Positions 50,069 through 57,445 of a stretch of 64,000 nucleotides of DNA are shown piece after piece. A model generated the notes under the pieces. The model saw only the letters and a list, made by a program, of their open reading frames with translations, ran no database searches and had not been told where the DNA came from. The translations under genes and the position numbers were made by a program. Position 1 is the stretch's first letter; each line of letters begins with the position of its first letter. Source of the DNA: Bathymodiolus thermophilus thioautotrophic gill symbiont (GTDB lineage: Bacteria > Pseudomonadota > Gammaproteobacteria > PS1 > Pseudothioglobaceae); contig NZ_CP024634.1 in assembly GCF_003711265.1 (NCBI RefSeq), forward strand, positions 2,480,001 to 2,544,000. The letters run 5' to 3'.

Positions 50069-51958
50069 TTAAATGATTTTTCCTGAATAATTTTCAATAC
50101 CTGGATTATTTTTTACGCCTTTAATGGTTGGATGATTGACTTTTTTAAGATTAAGATGTTTTTGTTTGCGGAGATAATCTGCTGCCACATCCCACATTAA
50201 ACGACCATTGCCCACCGAACCAACTTGCGCCCAACCCGATACTTTATAAGATTTATTTGGGTCAATCGCCGTCCCCTCGTCATCAACAATATTGCTGATG
50301 CGATTACCCAAACTTTTAGCAGGATCAATTGTGTAATCCAACCCACCTATACGCACCATATCGCCACCTGACTGTAAATATGGGTCTTGCACAAATAAGT
50401 TTTCTGCAATACCTTCTAAGATGTCTTTAAGTTGCGCACCTTTTAATTCATTAACATAAGTTTCGCCGTAAGTCATTGAAGTATTGGTCATTAAATCTTC
50501 CATAGTAACATCATGCCCTGCTGGTACGCTGGTACCCCAACGCACGCCAGCTGACATGGCAAAGTCTGCGTTATGTTCTTCACGCAATGAATTAACCAAC
50601 ACTTGATCCCAAGTCCCCATAAAGTTACCACGGCGATAAAGGGTTTGCTCAGTGGTACAAAGTTTTTCGGTCAAAATTGCATCAAAAGTTTTACCAACAC
50701 GCTTTGGATTGTTGCTCATTGTACTACTGCGTGCTTCAACCACATTGCGGTCGTATTTGGTTTGACGCATTTTATTAATATATGACACCATCGCTGCATC
50801 AGGCTTAATCAAATTGGTAATAATGGGCAACATCTTATAGTTATAGCCAACCACTTTATGGTCTTTAATATCCAAATCCATCACCCCAATATACTTACCC
50901 GAACACCCTGCATTAGTTACCACGGTTGTCCCACCTGCATTTTTTACTTCAATAGGTTTTGGCATACCGTCATGCGTATGACCACCAAAAATCGCATCAA
51001 TACCACTAATGCGTGATGCCATTTTAATATCCACATCCATGCCATTATGAGAAACCAAAATCACCGCATCAGGCTTTTCATTTGCACGAATATCAGCCAC
51101 CAGTTCAATCATCTCATCTTCACGCAAGCCAAATGACCAATCTGGGAAAAAGTATTTTTGTGGATTGGCGTTTGAAGTTCTAGGAAAGGCTTGTCCAATG
51201 ACTGCAATACGATGTCCGCCCACATTTTTAATCACATAAGGCTTAAATGGTAGAGCGTCGTCCTCGTTATAAAGTCCTCTGCCATCATATTTTTCCGTCA
51301 TAGAAATGTATTTATCACCCAGCAAAGCGTCTTCTAAAATGCGCACATTTTGACCCAGAAAATCCCCTTTAAAAAAACCAATATTCTTAAGTGTCTCTTC
51401 TTCTTTGTAGGTGAATTCCCAATGCCCAACCATCACATCCACTCCCAGCATATTACACGCCTCAACCATATCGGCACCCCGCGTCCAAAGCGATGTGCCA
51501 GAGCCTTGCCAAGTATCACCCCCATCAACGGTAAGTGTATTCTGCACACCACCTGCACTCTCACGCAACGAATCTAAAACAGTTTTAATCTGACCAAAGC
51601 CACCCGTTTTGCCGTATTTAGCCGCCAATTCTTCAAAATTATTGTAAGTAAAAGCATACGCTTCAGGTGAACCGGGTTTAACGCCAATTTGTTTGAGTAA
51701 CTTATTACCCACTACATGAGGCAATTGCCCAAAAGTTGAGCCAAAACCTAAATTAACATTTGGCTCACGGAAATAATTCGGCAATAAATTACCATGGGTA
51801 TCAGTAATATGCAAAATACGCGCATTACCTGTTTTTGCCACCTCATACTTATTTTCCTGAGTAGCTAACTTATCTGCATCATTGCCACAACCACCAATCA
51901 AGCCAGCCGTCGAACCAGCACCCAAAACCTTTATAAAATCTCTACGCGTCAAAGCCAT
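50069..51958 (-). CDS. soxB: Thiosulfohydrolase SoxB
   Basis: Periplasmic dimanganese enzyme of the Sox pathway that hydrolyses the sulfonate from SoxY-bound sulfur. It has a Tat signal TRRDFIKVLG (residues 4-13), then an LIGGC segment that could be a lipobox. Metallophosphatase motifs are HITDTHGNLLP, VMVGHWEFTY, LVSHNGMDVD and IFGGHTHDGMPKP. The C-terminal nucleotidase-like domain includes GVRWGTSVPAG. Length 629 is slightly above typical. No soxXYZA lie in the window, so soxB is unlinked from those genes here. Confidence 0.95.
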   Translation of the reverse strand: MALTRRDFIKVLGAGSTAGLIGGCGNDADKLATQENKYEVAKTGNARILHITDTHGNLLPNYFREPNVNLGFGSTFGQLPHVVGNKLLKQIGVKPGSPEAYAFTYNNFEELAAKYGKTGGFGQIKTVLDSLRESAGGVQNTLTVDGGDTWQGSGTSLWTRGADMVEACNMLGVDVMVGHWEFTYKEEETLKNIGFFKGDFLGQNVRILEDALLGDKYISMTEKYDGRGLYNEDDALPFKPYVIKNVGGHRIAVIGQAFPRTSNANPQKYFFPDWSFGLREDEMIELVADIRANEKPDAVILVSHNGMDVDIKMASRISGIDAIFGGHTHDGMPKPIEVKNAGGTTVVTNAGCSGKYIGVMDLDIKDHKVVGYNYKMLPIITNLIKPDAAMVSYINKMRQTKYDRNVVEARSSTMSNNPKRVGKTFDAILTEKLCTTEQTLYRRGNFMGTWDQVLVNSLREEHNADFAMSAGVRWGTSVPAGHDVTMEDLMTNTSMTYGETYVNELKGAQLKDILEGIAENLFVQDPYLQSGGDMVRIGGLDYTIDPAKSLGNRISNIVDDEGTAIDPNKSYKVSGWAQVGSVGNGRLMWDVAADYLRKQKHLNLKKVNHPTIKGVKNNPGIENYSGKII

Positions 51959-52563
51959 TCTTCGTTCCTAGTCATTGCAAAAGGAAATAATTTTACTGCG
52001 TCTAACCCTAAAGTGCAAAACTATCACTAAATTATAATATTCTAAAATAGACTTAATATCTTTAAGACATCCCAAAACTTAAGTATAAAAAACAGCATTT
52101 TTCAATAACAAAAAAACCATAGGCATCCCTCTATAAAGCATTTAAAGTAAGGCTTTTACATAAAATATAGATGATTAGGAAAAATCAATTTTTGCTCAAC
52201 TTGGTGATTTTCTCAAACCTTGTCTTAGCAAGCACCAAGGCTGGATTTATCCCCTTAGAGGGCTCTAGGTGTCGCTGGAAAAATTACCAAGTTAGTGAAA
52301 GTGGACTCCTGATGATTGCCCATATTTATACAAAGATCTTAAAGTAACCCCTGTATTATTGATTAAAAAAATAGATATTTAACCACAAGTTCAGATTAGA
52401 AGAAATCAACAAAGAACAAAGGCTTGGAATTGACTTGTAACTGATAAATGAACTCCATTTGACCCTATAAGCGTTAAACACTTATCAAGATTAATAAAGA
52501 ACCAACAATGGGATCAAACTAATCGCCAACAGAATAAGAAATCTTAGGTTGCCGCCTAGATAT
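51959..52563. other. Long gene-free spacer upstream of soxB with an element A copy
   Basis: The only clear structure is a divergent element A copy at 52151-52340. It contains about 30 extra bases near its centre (AGAGGGCTCTAGGTGTCGC) that look like an internal insertion. 52380-52560 may be decayed IS DNA but no frame is convincing. The soxB promoter should lie near 51960-52040; I cannot pick a -35/-10 pair. Confidence 0.5.
52151..52340. repeat. Divergent element A copy with internal insertion
   Basis: Ends GGCTTTTACATAAAATAT and, inverted, AGATCTTTGTATAAATATG. The length is about 190 bp instead of about 157. Confidence 0.6.
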
Positions 52564-52602
52564 AATTAAAACACCCGACAAATTTGCCAGGGTGTTTTAA
52601 TT
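52564..52602. terminator. Perfect 13-bp hairpin after the small secreted gene
   Basis: AATTAAAACACCC and GGGTGTTTTAATT form a perfect stem. It likely ends the minus-strand small-protein transcript. Confidence 0.7.
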
Positions 52603-52627
52603 GCAAATCTTTTGCATAAGTCTTTAC

Positions 52628-52999
52628 TTAAAGTATGATACCTATACCTATCTCTCTCAATATCGTGTCTTTTATATTCAGTGTAGAATTACCCGCTACC
52701 ACCTTTGCTCCCCTTACATCTCCTTGCAACAGTTTTTGTATAATTTGTGCATCAAAACTACTGTCGGTTGCCACCTTGATATCTAACTTCGCCGCCTTCC
52801 AAATATCTCCAAAAAAACCTGCTCCTTTCACTTTTTGCATTGAAGATTCGCTCATCGCAAGTGAACCAGTATTTTGTAGAAATACTGGGGAAGAAACAAC
52901 TGGGTTTTGACTTAGATTGGAATTTGCCATGCTAACACCCGAAGATACTACTCCTGTGACAATCACAATTGGTACCAATATTTTTTTTAAATTAAACAT
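52628..52999 (-). CDS. Small Sec-exported protein with GA-type C39 leader motif, paralogue 1
   Basis: 123 residues, family not recognised. Residues 1-25 are a Sec signal peptide (MFNLKKILVPIVIVTG, cleavage after SMA). A short linker is followed by MSESSMQKVKGA (49-60), which fits the bacteriocin-type double-glycine leader pattern at -12, -11, -7, -4, -2 and -1. The rest (GFFGDIWKAAKLDIKVATD onward) is the predicted released core. The first 60 residues are almost the same as in the paralogue at 53808, while the core is more divergent, as in leader-plus-variable-core systems. About 115 bp of upstream DNA are also shared with that gene. Proposed substrate of the C39 peptidase at 54250. Confidence 0.7.
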   Translation of the reverse strand: MFNLKKILVPIVIVTGVVSSGVSMANSNLSQNPVVSSPVFLQNTGSLAMSESSMQKVKGAGFFGDIWKAAKLDIKVATDSSFDAQIIQKLLQGDVRGAKVVAGNSTLNIKDTILREIGIGIIL

Positions 53000-53115
53000 A
53001 TACTCTCCCTATTAAGATTACAATTGATTAGTTCAATCAAACTTTTGCGAAAAACTCGCATGTAAATGTAATTAATTCTATTAGGAATTAATCAATTTAT
53101 TTGAAAATAATAACA
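53000..53115 (-). promoter_or_regulatory. Conserved leader of small secreted gene 1
   Basis: This region is the inverted counterpart of 53695-53807. Three inverted repeats are kept in both copies: TTAATTC-N6-GAATTAA, GCGAG-TTT-TTCGC and TTGAT-N7-ATCAA. Shine-Dalgarno is GGGAG. The conservation is stronger than in the protein cores, so it is likely a shared promoter/operator. Confidence 0.6.
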
Positions 53116-53181
53116 CACTTCCCTCTAAAGAAAAAGTTTTTTTATAAAAAAGTTTTTGTGTAAATAATTTTTCTAGGACAC

Positions 53182-53640
53182 TCAGTAGTTTTCACTCATT
53201 ACTAACTGCGAATCCATGGTATTGGATGTCTTATGTGGTAACACTACTTTAGAATGCCAATTGATAATAGTTATCATATACGCTATGCCACCTGCAACCC
53301 CGATGTAAATGATGTCTGTAGACCAAACTTGATTGGCATGGTTAATACCAGGACCTTGAAGTTTGTAACTGTGCTTCTTGTGTGTTTTGATTGATATAGT
53401 TGCATTAACTTGTTTAACTACCAATACTGCCTTTAAGCCCAGTTTTTAATGATAGCGTACAATCGTATTTAGGCTTACCTTGTAGCCGTCTTCAAGCAAT
53501 TGTTAATGTACTTTTTTTCGCCGTAAATGGATATGCGTTCAAATACTTTGCTAATGTGATTTTTGACGGTTTGCTTATTTTTTCGCTTGATTTAACGGTT
53601 CTGAAATAAGGAAAGTTAAATTGCTGGGATTTCATAAAAG
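53182..53640 (-). pseudogene. IS3-family transposase remnant
   Basis: The longest piece (53182-53424) reads NQVWSTDIIYIGVAGGIAYM, the integrase-core signature of IS3-type OrfB. Upstream, in other frames, YGEKKYINNCL and similar pieces match the HTH_21 segment. Frame changes and a missing C-terminus with its catalytic Glu make it inactive. It lies between the two divergent small secreted genes and may have created their inverted arrangement. Confidence 0.7.
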
Positions 53641-53694
53641 CCTTCTTTAGTAAGAAAATATTTTTTTTGAAAAATATTCATTTTTTAAAAAAAA

Positions 53695-53807
53695 ATATGT
53701 TATTATTGGATTTAAATTAATTAATTCCCAACGGAGTTAATTACATTTTATGCGAATTTTTCGCAAAAGTTTGATTGAGCTGATCAATTGTAATTCTAAG
53801 GGGCTAT
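53695..53807 (+). promoter_or_regulatory. Conserved leader of small secreted gene 2
   Basis: Matches the inverted 53000-53115 leader over about 110 bp. The palindromes here are TTAATTC-N6-GAGTTAA (one mismatch), GCGAA-TTT-TTCGC and TTGAT-N7-ATCAA. Shine-Dalgarno is AAGGGG. Confidence 0.6.
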
Positions 53808-54185
53808 ATGTTTAATTTAAAAAAAATATTGACAGGGGCTGTTATTGCTACAGGGTTAGCATCTTCAGGTATTAGCATGGCAAATTCCAATTCTTCTCCA
53901 GCATTTCTACAAAATACCGGTTCACTTGCGATGAGCGAATCTTCAATGCAAAAAGTGAAAGGAGCAGGTTTTCTTTCAGATGTTTGGACAGCGATGAAGG
54001 TAGATATTAAAATAGCAACCCATCCTATATATGCTGTAAAAATTGCACGCAAACTGCTTAACGGGGATGTAAAAGGGGCAGAAAAGGTAATGTTCAAGAA
54101 TAATGTTGAAATGAATGCAGGAACGCTGTGGAAAAATTCTTACCTATACAGCATAAAAAAAACAATTGGCCTTATACCCCTATAA
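53808..54185 (+). CDS. Small Sec-exported protein with GA-type C39 leader motif, paralogue 2
   Basis: 125 residues. Signal peptide 1-25 (MFNLKKILTGAVIATG, then SMA). FLQNTGSLAMSESSMQKVK then GA is identical to paralogue 1. The predicted core starts GFLSDVWTAMKVDIKIATH and shares KLLNGDVKGAEKV with paralogue 1, but the C-terminal third differs. It is followed on the same strand by the C39 peptidase and the beta-barrel gene, with a fragment of element A between. The function of the core is unknown; toxin, adhesin or signalling peptide are all open. Confidence 0.7.
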   Translation: MFNLKKILTGAVIATGLASSGISMANSNSSPAFLQNTGSLAMSESSMQKVKGAGFLSDVWTAMKVDIKIATHPIYAVKIARKLLNGDVKGAEKVMFKNNVEMNAGTLWKNSYLYSIKKTIGLIPL

Positions 54186-54195
54186 AAAACTTGTA

Positions 54196-54213
54196 ATTTA
54201 TGCAAAGGTCTCA
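54196..54213. repeat. Solo end of element A
   Basis: ATTTATGCAAAGGTCTC alone, between the small secreted gene and the peptidase gene. Confidence 0.55.
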
Positions 54214-54249
54214 AAGAAAATTGTGTTTTTAATTTACTAGAGGTAAAAA

Positions 54250-54858
54250 ATAAAATATATTTTCATAATTCTGGCTTTCCTAGGAATTTCTTTTTCTGTT
54301 TTTTCAGAAAAAAATTTTAAAAATTGGCAAGATTTAAAATTTAAAAATGTCACACCACAACTGTACGATTTTAGTTGTGGTGTGGCTGCGTTAACGACAC
54401 TATTCAATTATCAATTTGGTAGGAATACTAAGGAGCAAAAACTTTTACTTGGTTATTTAAAAAGTCTGTCGAAAAAACGGCAGAACAAAATAACAGAGCT
54501 TGGACTTTCTCTTTTTGAGTTAAAAGAAATCGGAGAATACTCTGGGTTCCAAGTTTATGTTGTTAGAATTCCATTTCAAGGCTTGGTAAAAACAAATAAA
54601 CCGGCGTTGGTTTATATTGAAAATGAAAAGTTCAAGCACTTTGTCGTGTTTCGTGGATTTAAGCAAGGTAAAGTTTTTCTAGCCGACTCTTCAATTGGTA
54701 ATCGTTCGATCCTTCCCAAAGATTTTATAAAATTGTGGAAAGGAACCGCAGCGTTGTTTCTTGTCAGTAACAAAGAAAAAGATTTGAATATCTTAGATAT
54801 TCATAATAAAGAATTAATTTTCCCTCAATATAGAGCAATAGAGGGCATGTTGAGATAA
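54250..54858 (+). CDS. Periplasmic C39-type (double-glycine) peptidase with an ATA at the start position
   Basis: Stand-alone C39 cysteine peptidase, about 202 residues, without an ABC transporter. Read from 54250 it has a signal peptide (KYIFIILAFLGISFSVFS). The catalytic block is TPQLYDFSCGVAALTTLF with the oxyanion Gln and the Cys, the His is in FKHFVVFRG and the Asp in VFLADSSIGNRS. It belongs with predicted double-glycine peptidases such as FapD. The expected start codon, right after GAGG-7bp, is ATA instead of ATG. The only standard upstream-usable codon is GTG at 54382, which would remove the catalytic Cys. Either ATA is used, or the gene is newly inactivated. The rest is undamaged. 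Confidence 0.7.
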   Translation: MKYIFIILAFLGISFSVFSEKNFKNWQDLKFKNVTPQLYDFSCGVAALTTLFNYQFGRNTKEQKLLLGYLKSLSKKRQNKITELGLSLFELKEIGEYSGFQVYVVRIPFQGLVKTNKPALVYIENEKFKHFVVFRGFKQGKVFLADSSIGNRSILPKDFIKLWKGTAALFLVSNKEKDLNILDIHNKELIFPQYRAIEGMLR

Positions 54859-54863
54859 TTTAC

Positions 54864-54890
54864 AAGCGAGGTGTTGGCTCGCTTTTTTTA
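54864..54890 (+). terminator. Terminator after the C39 peptidase
   Basis: AAGCGAG and CTCGCTT arms with a 7-base loop, followed by a run of T. It separates the peptidase from the barrel gene, unless read through. Confidence 0.75.
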
Positions 54891-54898
54891 AAATATTG

Positions 54899-54979
54899 CA
54901 AGATCTTTGTATGAGTGTGGACGATTAACAAAATTCAATTTTGCTAAAGTGGTGATTTTATTAAACCTTATCTCAACAA
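54899..54979. repeat. Left half of element A
   Basis: AGATCTTTGTATGAGTGTG and the following core match element A. It is cut off where element C begins. Confidence 0.6.
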
Positions 54980-55056
54980 GAGACCCCTGTATTAGACATA
55001 AATATGAACTAAAGGCCAACTTTTATTCAACATCCATGTCTAAATGTAGGGGTCTC
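54980..55056. repeat. Element C, 77-bp palindromic element
   Basis: GAGACCCCTGTATTAGACAT at the left and GAGACCCCTACATTTAGACA (inverted) at the right. No coding capacity. Its ends share AGACCCCT with the IS5-family element at 21981. It sits 36 bp upstream of the barrel gene start. Confidence 0.7.
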
Positions 55057-55091
55057 GTCGTATGTTTTCTTTTTAATTAAAGGGGTAAAAA

Positions 55092-55928
55092 ATGAAAAAA
55101 ACCTTTAAAGCAATCATTACTGGTATTTTGTTTTTAGTTTTTTCACAAAATTCTCTTGCAGAGGAGGAGGGTAAAGTTGGGATCAAATCAAAAGATGATT
55201 TAAAAGCCTATTTAGAGATGTTTAGAAATTCTCATTCTTTGTTGAAAAAAGGAAAATTTAGATTTACAGAATCACTGTCTTATCAATTTGATGGAAATTC
55301 AACACTTTTTACGGAAGAGTCTTTAAGGGTTATTAACTTATATTCTAGTTTAGAATACGGGTTAACAAAAAACATTGGCATCTATGGGGTTTTTTTGTAT
55401 TCTAATGCTTCTAAAAATGTAAAAACAGCCTACACCAATAATGAAGAAACAATCGTCGCCAATATTAAAGAATCTTCTAATTCTAGATTTTCAAAAATTG
55501 GCATTAAAAAAGTTATATTTTTGGAAGAAAATAACTTTCCAGAATTGGTGTTAGACTTCTCATTTTCTGGCAAAAATAAAGAAAAAAATAAAACGATTTC
55601 CTCTAAAATTAATTTGATAAAATCTTTCGACCCCATTGTTTTATTGGGTAGTTTTGGCTTAAATTATGAGACTGATTCATATAAAAAATCTGTTGCTTTG
55701 GTCGGAGGAATTGGTTTTGGAATCAACGACAAAATAGCATTGGGCTCTGATTTATCTTGGTCTATTCCAATTGGCAATAATTTTGATTCAAAAAAAGATA
55801 ACGCTATGCTTTCGGGTAGAGTTATTATCACTTCTGCACAAGATACTTTTGAACCATCGGTAAGCTTTGGTTTGACGGAATTTTCTCCAGATATGTCTTT
55901 AGGAATTTCTTGGTCAAGAAGATTCTAA
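55092..55928 (+). CDS. Outer-membrane beta-barrel protein beside the C39 peptidase
   Basis: 278 residues, family not recognised for certain. The Sec signal peptide covers residues 1-23 (ending SLA). A short helical segment with DDLKAYLEMF follows. Then come alternating amphipathic strands and a C-terminal aromatic end GISWSRRF, typical of outer-membrane barrels. Shine-Dalgarno is AAAGGGG with the same GGTAAAAA context as the peptidase gene. Known C39-barrel pairs, such as FapD-FapF, suggest an export pore. This is inference. Confidence 0.65.
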   Translation: MKKTFKAIITGILFLVFSQNSLAEEEGKVGIKSKDDLKAYLEMFRNSHSLLKKGKFRFTESLSYQFDGNSTLFTEESLRVINLYSSLEYGLTKNIGIYGVFLYSNASKNVKTAYTNNEETIVANIKESSNSRFSKIGIKKVIFLEENNFPELVLDFSFSGKNKEKNKTISSKINLIKSFDPIVLLGSFGLNYETDSYKKSVALVGGIGFGINDKIALGSDLSWSIPIGNNFDSKKDNAMLSGRVIITSAQDTFEPSVSFGLTEFSPDMSLGISWSRRF

Positions 55929-56034
55929 AGGAGATGATTCTGCTGTTTAGGGAGAATACAACTAATACTATTGAATTATTAAACTCAATGATCAAAAAAA
56001 ACCATCAAAAAACAGAAAGATTTTTAATAATAAC

Positions 56035-57157: not shown

Positions 57158-57291
57158 AAAAATAGTGTATTTTTCTAAATCTCAGGAACCTTCAAGGGGA
57201 TTCTAAAGTTAGTAACTAAAATCAAAAACGATTTTTTCACCCTTATTTCAAGGTTTATCTTGTTATTACTATAAAAATATTCACTCCATTG

Positions 57292-57445
57292 GAGACCTTT
57301 GCATAAATATAAATAATCATCAGGAATCCACTTTTCACCCACTTGGTAATTTTTTAAACCCAGCCTTAGCCCTGCTAGGACAAGGTTTAAGAAAATTACC
57401 AAGTGGGCAAAAATTGAATATCATCCATATTTATGCAAAGGTCTC
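57292..57445. repeat. Element A, near-consensus copy
   Basis: Ends GAGACCTTTGCATAAATAT on both sides (inverted). ATT flanks each outer G (…ATT-GGAGACC and GGTCTCC-ATT), a possible 3-bp target duplication. Confidence 0.8.

Follow-up and report, generated by a model that had tools for sequence, protein, structure and literature searches.

A candidate nap-like peptide-export locus with shared upstream and leader DNA in two inverted gene copies of a mussel symbiont

Introduction

The nap island of Neisseria, as described in PMC11798529, encodes the GG peptides NapA, NapB and NapC together with a C39 peptidase, NapP, and a homologue of FapF, NapF. The authors of that paper propose a model in which the peptides are cleaved in the periplasm and secreted by NapP and NapF. 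A C39 peptidase that works in the periplasm, FapD, is also described in the Fap paper (PMC5557850); according to that paper, the Fap proteins are without canonical C39 sequences and the target of FapD is unclear.

Here we analyse a locus in a stretch of 64,000 nucleotides (hereafter the window) from the genome of the Bathymodiolus thermophilus thioautotrophic gill symbiont. An earlier note on this DNA had described two divergent paralogues with about 115 bp of shared upstream DNA, and had proposed that they are under shared control and arose as a duplicated leader-plus-promoter cassette. The best explanation that we can offer, with about an even chance of being right, is a nap-like peptide-export locus in which promoter, 5'UTR and secretion leader form a duplicated cassette and in which the hairpins of the 5'UTR, if active, would act as RNA.

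Results

The duplicated gene pair

The interval 53000-53807 lies between two divergent genes, copy 1 and copy 2. The genes of the locus are the following.

52628..52999, minus strand: copy 1, a 123-aa precursor with a Sec-like signal, a C39-type leader ending MSESSMQKVKGA and a 63-aa core
53182..53424, minus strand: IS3-family integrase fragment between copies 1 and 2 (Pfam rve E=3e-7, just under the cut-off; NCBIfam IS3 E=3.5e-9, far under the cut-off)
53808..54185, plus strand: copy 2, a 125-aa precursor with the leader motif as in copy 1 and a 72-aa core
54250..54858, plus strand: C39 peptidase of the periplasmic, FilB/FapD-like type (Pfam C39 E=6.7e-20, FilB 2.3e-30, FapD 1e-20)
55092..55928, plus strand: FapF/NapF-like outer-membrane beta-barrel of 278 aa, the putative exporter

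The upstream homology of copies 1 and 2 clearly exceeds chance. About 100 bp of inverted upstream DNA is common to both and is 80-90% identical. A repeat search found two pairs of inverted arms upstream, one of 50 nt (90% identity) and one of 36 nt (86%), and further arms of 87 nt (83%) and 199 nt (79%), which lie largely within the two genes. BLAST joined the two upstream regions in one match of 97-99 bases with 85% identity (E=1.7e-23), and over about 140 nt there are 107 identical sites among 134 aligned, the differences being 21 transitions and 6 transversions. The inverted upstream copies of the earlier note are thereby borne out, as is its IS3 remnant between the genes by the IS3-type integrase fragment.

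A SoxB-like protein was recognised by eye at 50069-51958 in the window.

Four precursors in the genome

A protein-level search of the 2.83-Mb one-contig genome found four members of the precursor family. Paralogues 3 and 4 (copies 3 and 4) lie in tandem at a second locus (L013) and adjoin a C39 fragment that carries stop codons.

contig 248974-249291: copy 3
contig 249420-249710: copy 4

In the signal plus leader, copies 3 and 4 are 93% identical, copies 1 and 3 61% and copies 2 and 4 55%. The cores of copies 3 and 4, with 37 and 46 aa, are 46% identical where they can be aligned. Furthermore, all four members have a TATTAT box upstream, which in copy 4 is not preceded by TG. They also have in common a start flank of the type T-Y-GTAAT...AAGGRG, which includes the Shine-Dalgarno sequence.

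A genome search with 121 upstream bases gave eight matches, namely copies 1 and 2 and six short weak ones. The earlier note had suggested aligning the leader genome-wide in order to find more family members; such a search recovers two full leader copies only, and the two additional members appear at the protein level. The situation that the note had set against its own reading, a genome with two copies and no other conserved palindromes, does not hold for the proteins, of which there are four, and nearly holds for the palindromes. A search of 11 other genomes of the genus found no copy of the leader, only matches of 21-43 bases in five.

Searches for the precursors themselves in related genomes gave one weak BLAST match among 94 other genomes and one weak profile match among 82 others, two sets that overlap, and the two weak matches in genomes of the family fall in frames of considerable size, 478 and 366 aa. 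No relative of the precursors was confirmed in genome_contigs, in viral contigs, in plasmids with copy 2 as the query or in phages with copy 1 as the query.

Repeats of 31 nt that are 84% alike flank the peptide locus of the window (52202-52232 and 54950-54980). Similar frames and GCAAAGGTCTC-like ends were seen by eye near both peptide loci (57175-57402 in the window and L013:5729-5980). All of these are probably remnants of insertion sequences.

Precursors, C39 peptidase and barrel

All four precursors consist of a short basic-hydrophobic signal whose last residues are S-M-A or S-V-A, a spacer, a C39 motif and a core. By eye, the N-terminal signal is Sec-like. The consensus of C39 leaders is L-12, S-11, E-8, L-7, I-4, G-2 and G/A-1. 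In each of the four precursors a motif M-S/N-x3-M-x2-V-K-G-A is found within residues 42-60, with the same spacing of M-12, S/N-11, M-7, V-4, G-2 and A-1, and these positions fit the consensus. The wider leader comparison covered 12 precursors, which were picked for showing the motif.

The C39 peptidase, encoded downstream of copy 2, has a hydrophobic N-terminus. Its Cys, His and Asp positions, which we take to be the catalytic residues, are invariant in seven sequences. There is no in-frame ATG, GTG or TTG before the conserved Cys of this frame, and the apparent start is an ATA at 54250 (54250-54258), at fitting distance behind a GAGG. The lack of a normal C39 start, together with the C39 fragment with stop codons at the second locus, points to possible decay of the peptide-export system in this genome; alternatively, the C39 start may be inefficient.

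The barrel has a BLASTP match to the barrel of a Neisseriaceae MAG (locus L030) with E=1.8e-9 in a database of five sequences, and hmmsearch gave 9.4e-12 for one sequence among the barrels that neighbour other C39 genes. In the PDB, the barrel-family profile has its best match, a weak one, in FapF (5o67, E=5.9e-4). The AlphaFold model of the barrel was unusable (pLDDT 32.5).

A route can be proposed. The precursor would cross the inner membrane via Sec, the adjacent periplasmic C39 peptidase would cut it after K-G-A, and the core would exit through the FapF-like barrel, as proposed for the Neisseria Naps.

The same anatomy in other bacteria

Relatives of the C39 peptidase were found in 4 of the 82 other genomes of the family. 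Six named C39 loci came from genome_contigs, three of which belong to Bathymodiolus thiotrophic symbionts. A barrel, a precursor with Sec signal plus C39 leader and a C39 peptidase occur together in genome G007, the Neisseriaceae MAG, a Hydrogenophaga MAG and Cardiobacterium hominis, and the same three-gene anatomy is present in the class genomes behind loci L041 and L042. The contig of the B. brooksi symbiont has the precursor and the peptidase, with the barrel absent. The barrel frame of the B. heckerae symbiont is cut short, and no precursor was seen when its frames of at least 60 aa were inspected. For the B. septemdierum symbiont (L025), about 4.7 kb separate the peptidase from a barrel-like stretch, and a precursor was not noticed there.

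At 6-545 and 1569-2261 of the B. heckerae locus (L034) there are a polymorphic-toxin-like fragment, recognised by eye, and the short barrel frame, which is placed before a transposase-like gene.

A C39 match with E<=1e-10 was present in 59 of the 369 genomes sampled from the class, our own genome included. Those in frames of about 700-1130 aa probably represent C39 domains of ABC transporters. One genome (G128) holds an expanded set of seven C39 matches in frames of 218-236 aa, on contigs C183, C111, C213, C125 and C17.

We searched 29 loci, within about 1.5 kb, with a regular expression for precursors. It matched in L041, L042, L044, L052, L054 and L061, and a convincing precursor, one protein each, is present in three of the 29 (L041, L042 and L054). 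The two-signal design therefore recurs, though it is not universal beside C39 genes. The L042 motif, LSTAEMGEIKGG, was read by eye, and the start of the L031 precursor was chosen by eye.

Two proteins of L042 (55-345 and 2713-3375) have similar CYYLMY-AG-YYQI-LP stretches at their ends. One of the two has a Sec-like signal followed by LSTAEMGEIKGG and adjoins a barrel and a C39 gene. In the Neisseriaceae MAG (L030:1359-2954), a 243-aa gene comes after that of a 265-aa Sec-plus-C39-leader precursor, whose C-terminal part is large; the two are possibly an effector and its partner, and neither has a family match above the curated cut-off. A match of a relative's peptide to JUQZ/BLB8 had E=0.18 and was taken as chance.

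Divergence along the cassette

The divergence between copies 1 and 2 is mosaic. It is 0.193 in the upstream DNA (18/106 sites), and dS is 0.215 in the part that encodes the signal and leader (7/37.5 synonymous sites) and 0.74 in the core (20/42.5 synonymous sites). The excess of core over leader dS has a Fisher P of 0.009 with rounded counts, in a gapped core alignment in which misalignment may inflate the core value. Without gaps, the first 40 core codons agree at 81 of 120 bases, and 48% of the core residues are identical, so that the cores resemble each other less than the upstream DNA does, as the earlier note had observed. Copies 3 and 4 differ in the same direction, with 0.107 in the leader and 0.37 in the core (P=0.09 taken alone).

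The jump in dS at the boundary of leader and core suggests recombination, by which either the 5' cassette was homogenised or the cores were replaced. Copies 1 and 2 would be inverted duplicates of the gene for a secreted-peptide precursor, with the cassette either copied whole or homogenised by recombination afterwards. Its parts would be the promoter box, a 5'UTR that spans about 95-105 nt and contains small hairpins, the Sec-like signal and the C39-type leader, followed by a core that diverged. The low values upstream and in the leader, set against the value of the core, support the proposal that a leader-plus-promoter cassette was duplicated.

Palindromes and the promoter box

The elements upstream of copies 1 and 2 are the following.

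53107..53115, minus strand: TGTTATTAT box upstream of copy 1, extended -10-like by eye
53698..53706, plus strand: TGTTATTAT box upstream of copy 2, extended -10-like by eye
53069..53094, minus strand: hairpin 1 of copy 1, arms paired at 10 of 11 positions, once by G-U
53718..53743, plus strand: hairpin 1 of copy 2, arms paired at 11 of 11 positions, once by U-G
53046..53060, minus strand: hairpin 2 of copy 1, TGCGAG-TTT-TTCGCA, 6 pairs with one G-U
53751..53765, plus strand: hairpin 2 of copy 2, TGCGAA-TTT-TTCGCA, 6 pairs
53024..53040, minus strand: hairpin 3 of copy 1, TTGATTGAACTAATCAA
53771..53787, plus strand: hairpin 3 of copy 2, TTGATTGAGCTGATCAA

Three conserved palindromes had been claimed for this DNA. 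GCGAR-TTT-TTCGC and TTGAT-N7-ATCAA are indeed exact in both copies, whereas TTAATTC-N6-GAATTAA is perfect in copy 1 only and reads GAGTTAA, with one T-G pair, in copy 2. The claim that the GCGAG/GCGAA difference keeps pairing through G-T holds, as hairpin 2 has six pairs in each copy.

Since the likely -10 box precedes the palindromes, these would be transcribed. If TGTTATTAT is an extended -10, the transcript would begin just before hairpin 1 and the hairpins would form in the 5'UTR. A sigma-70 scan predicted 12 sites against 7.4 expected, none of them at the proposed TGTTATTAT box, and the promoter and terminator scan found 0 terminator-like sites. Rfam covariance models run over 52400-56000 gave only one match, at chance level (E=0.78) and outside the leader. 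In the predicted folds the Shine-Dalgarno region is unpaired in copy 2 and partly paired in copy 1.

The palindromes exceed chance weakly. Perfect hairpins of at least 5 pairs contain more bases than in shuffled sequences with P=0.004 for copy 1 and P=0.13 for copy 2; when G-U pairs are allowed and at least 6 pairs are required, P is 0.06 and 0.05 (500 shuffles for each of the four). The leader of copy 1 folds with z -2.36 (108 nt; 2 of 200 shuffles fold as well) and that of copy 2 with z -1.91 (101 nt; 7 of 200). Among 31 upstream regions of 105 nt each, taken from the 56 frames of the window, copy 2 ranks fourth (z -2.4) and copy 1 seventh (z -1.8), and the region in third place is no real upstream region, as it sits within the C39 frame.

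Between copies 1 and 2 the hairpin arms, which were picked from predicted folds, differ at five positions. Four of these changes retain the pair via G-U; at the fifth position copy 2 has a C-G pair where copy 1 has C-A. In simulated substitution, such preservation of pairs has P=0.008 starting from copy 1 and P=0.15 starting from copy 2. The copies differ at 5 of 48 sites in the arms and at 13 of 58 in the remainder, and the rate in the arms is not significantly lower (P=0.12). The palindromes of copies 1 and 2 are not present upstream of copies 3 and 4, which have other hairpins, with one double compensatory change and two pairs broken in copy 4 (pair preservation P 0.14 or 0.001, by direction). 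The hairpin covariation that the earlier note had proposed to analyse can draw on four leader sequences only. It is favoured by the four of five arm changes that keep their pairs; against it stand the dependence of P on direction and the consensus fold of all four leaders, which has a single, different stem of 5 pairs and does not recover the three hairpins.

Discussion

What the upstream DNA may do

The fact that four of the five arm differences keep G-U pairing favours weak mRNA hairpins over DNA operators, and the evidence leans weakly to RNA. If the hairpins are active, they would most likely be RNA elements of the 5'UTR that slow mRNA decay or tune translation. As an analogy only, the nearest working counterpart of the leader may be the ompA 5'UTR of E. 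coli, which also places structure ahead of the start and whose elements are said to stabilise their mRNA, according to PMC2777011.

The main alternative to such a functional RNA is plain common descent. The upstream divergence of 0.19 is close to the dS of 0.215 in the adjacent leader, so shared descent suffices for the upstream likeness, and nothing in these alignments shows a constraint on the upstream DNA of copies 1 and 2 beyond it. The likeness would then come from duplication or gene conversion, and the palindromes would be functionless products of chance in AT-rich DNA, consistent with the weak hairpin excess and with the absence of the stems from copies 3 and 4. The preserved pairing in the arms speaks against this, as do four segments of 66-75 nt that fold with z -2.4 to -4.0, though these were selected post hoc, once the hairpins were known. 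As an account of the whole region, we consider plain descent a serious competitor, at roughly one chance in three; for the hairpins alone, functional RNA and descent stand at about even odds.

A role in DNA, with the palindromes as operators at which dimeric regulators co-regulate copies 1 and 2, seems unlikely to us. The dyad symmetry lies close to the promoter that we infer, and since the half-sites TTGAT/ATCAA and GCGA/TCGC are symmetric in both copies, some room for such a role is left. FNR half-sites resemble TTGAT/ATCAA and have a spacing of N4; an FNR site at TTGAT-N7-ATCAA was dropped on account of its N7. Moreover, the TTAATTC element is asymmetric in copy 2, inner or outer arm pairs differ by G-U changes in all three elements, the sites are missing from copies 3 and 4, and they lie downstream of the likely -10 box. 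The only other genomic occurrence of the GCGAR element is within a frame. GCGARTTTTTCGC has three occurrences in the genome, of which the third falls within a frame of 458 aa.

An upstream ORF, in which ATGCGA in hairpin 2 would open a peptide MR[I/V]FRKSLIELINCN... of 24 residues in copy 1 and 21 in copy 2 and couple translation across the gene start, is very improbable: it is open in both copies with its stop beyond the main ATG and two of the three differences in its shared part are synonymous by eye, which is not telling, and by eye it has no clear Shine-Dalgarno sequence ahead in copy 1 and is absent from copies 3 and 4.

The shared control proposed in the earlier note is plausible; what counts against it is that the upstream DNA is no better conserved than the synonymous sites beside it, that copies 3 and 4 lack the palindromes and the fold common to all four leaders misses the three hairpins, and that no copy of the leader turned up in a search of 11 other genomes of the genus.

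Comparison with known systems

On its own, the leader offers a modest example of a 5' cassette that was duplicated, and the surrounding locus is more useful. We tentatively propose, at slightly less than even chances, that the loci with a periplasmic C39 peptidase and a FapF-like barrel, present in several of the beta- and gammaproteobacteria examined here, export precursors with a Sec signal followed by a C39 leader of fixed positions -12 to -1, and that here the promoter, 5'UTR and double leader were duplicated as a unit with changing cores. If this is true, two-signal precursors would supply a recognition sequence for peptidases of the FapD/NapP type. In what is likely a chemosynthetic mussel symbiont, the locus also shows how probably exported peptides evolve with a conserved leader and a variable core. 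We met no class of Sec-plus-C39-leader precursors in the literature searched, which does not prove its absence from print.

Fil, a putative pilus system, shares with this locus a C39 peptidase of the FilB type (E=2.3e-30) and, weakly, the barrel (FilC, E=0.009; NCBIfam), with scores that are far below the cut-offs (FilB 105.9 of 475 bits, FilC 15.4 of 630 bits). The Fap functional-amyloid system of Pseudomonas likewise combines a periplasmic C39 peptidase with an outer-membrane barrel (PMC5557850). The Fap equivalogs are again far from their cut-offs, with 74 of 330 bits for FapD and 15.6 of 700 bits for FapF, and the barrel has 278 aa against the 420 positions of the FapF model. Unlike the Fap proteins as that source presents them, the precursor neighbouring the peptidase here has a canonical C39 motif (PMC5557850).

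By its anatomy the locus looks nap-like. Small precursors with C39 leaders, a stand-alone C39 peptidase and a FapF-related barrel occur in one locus, as in the nap island (PMC11798529), and the processing and export of the precursors would follow from this likeness. The cores differ from the mature Nap sizes quoted in that paper in length and charge (PMC11798529). Furthermore, a Sec-like signal precedes the C39 motif here, whereas the main text of PMC11798529 is without the terms 'signal peptide' or Sec. The precursor carries its canonical C39 cleavage motif after a Sec-like signal and is encoded beside a peptidase of the FapD/NapP type, which provides a concrete and testable cleavage site.
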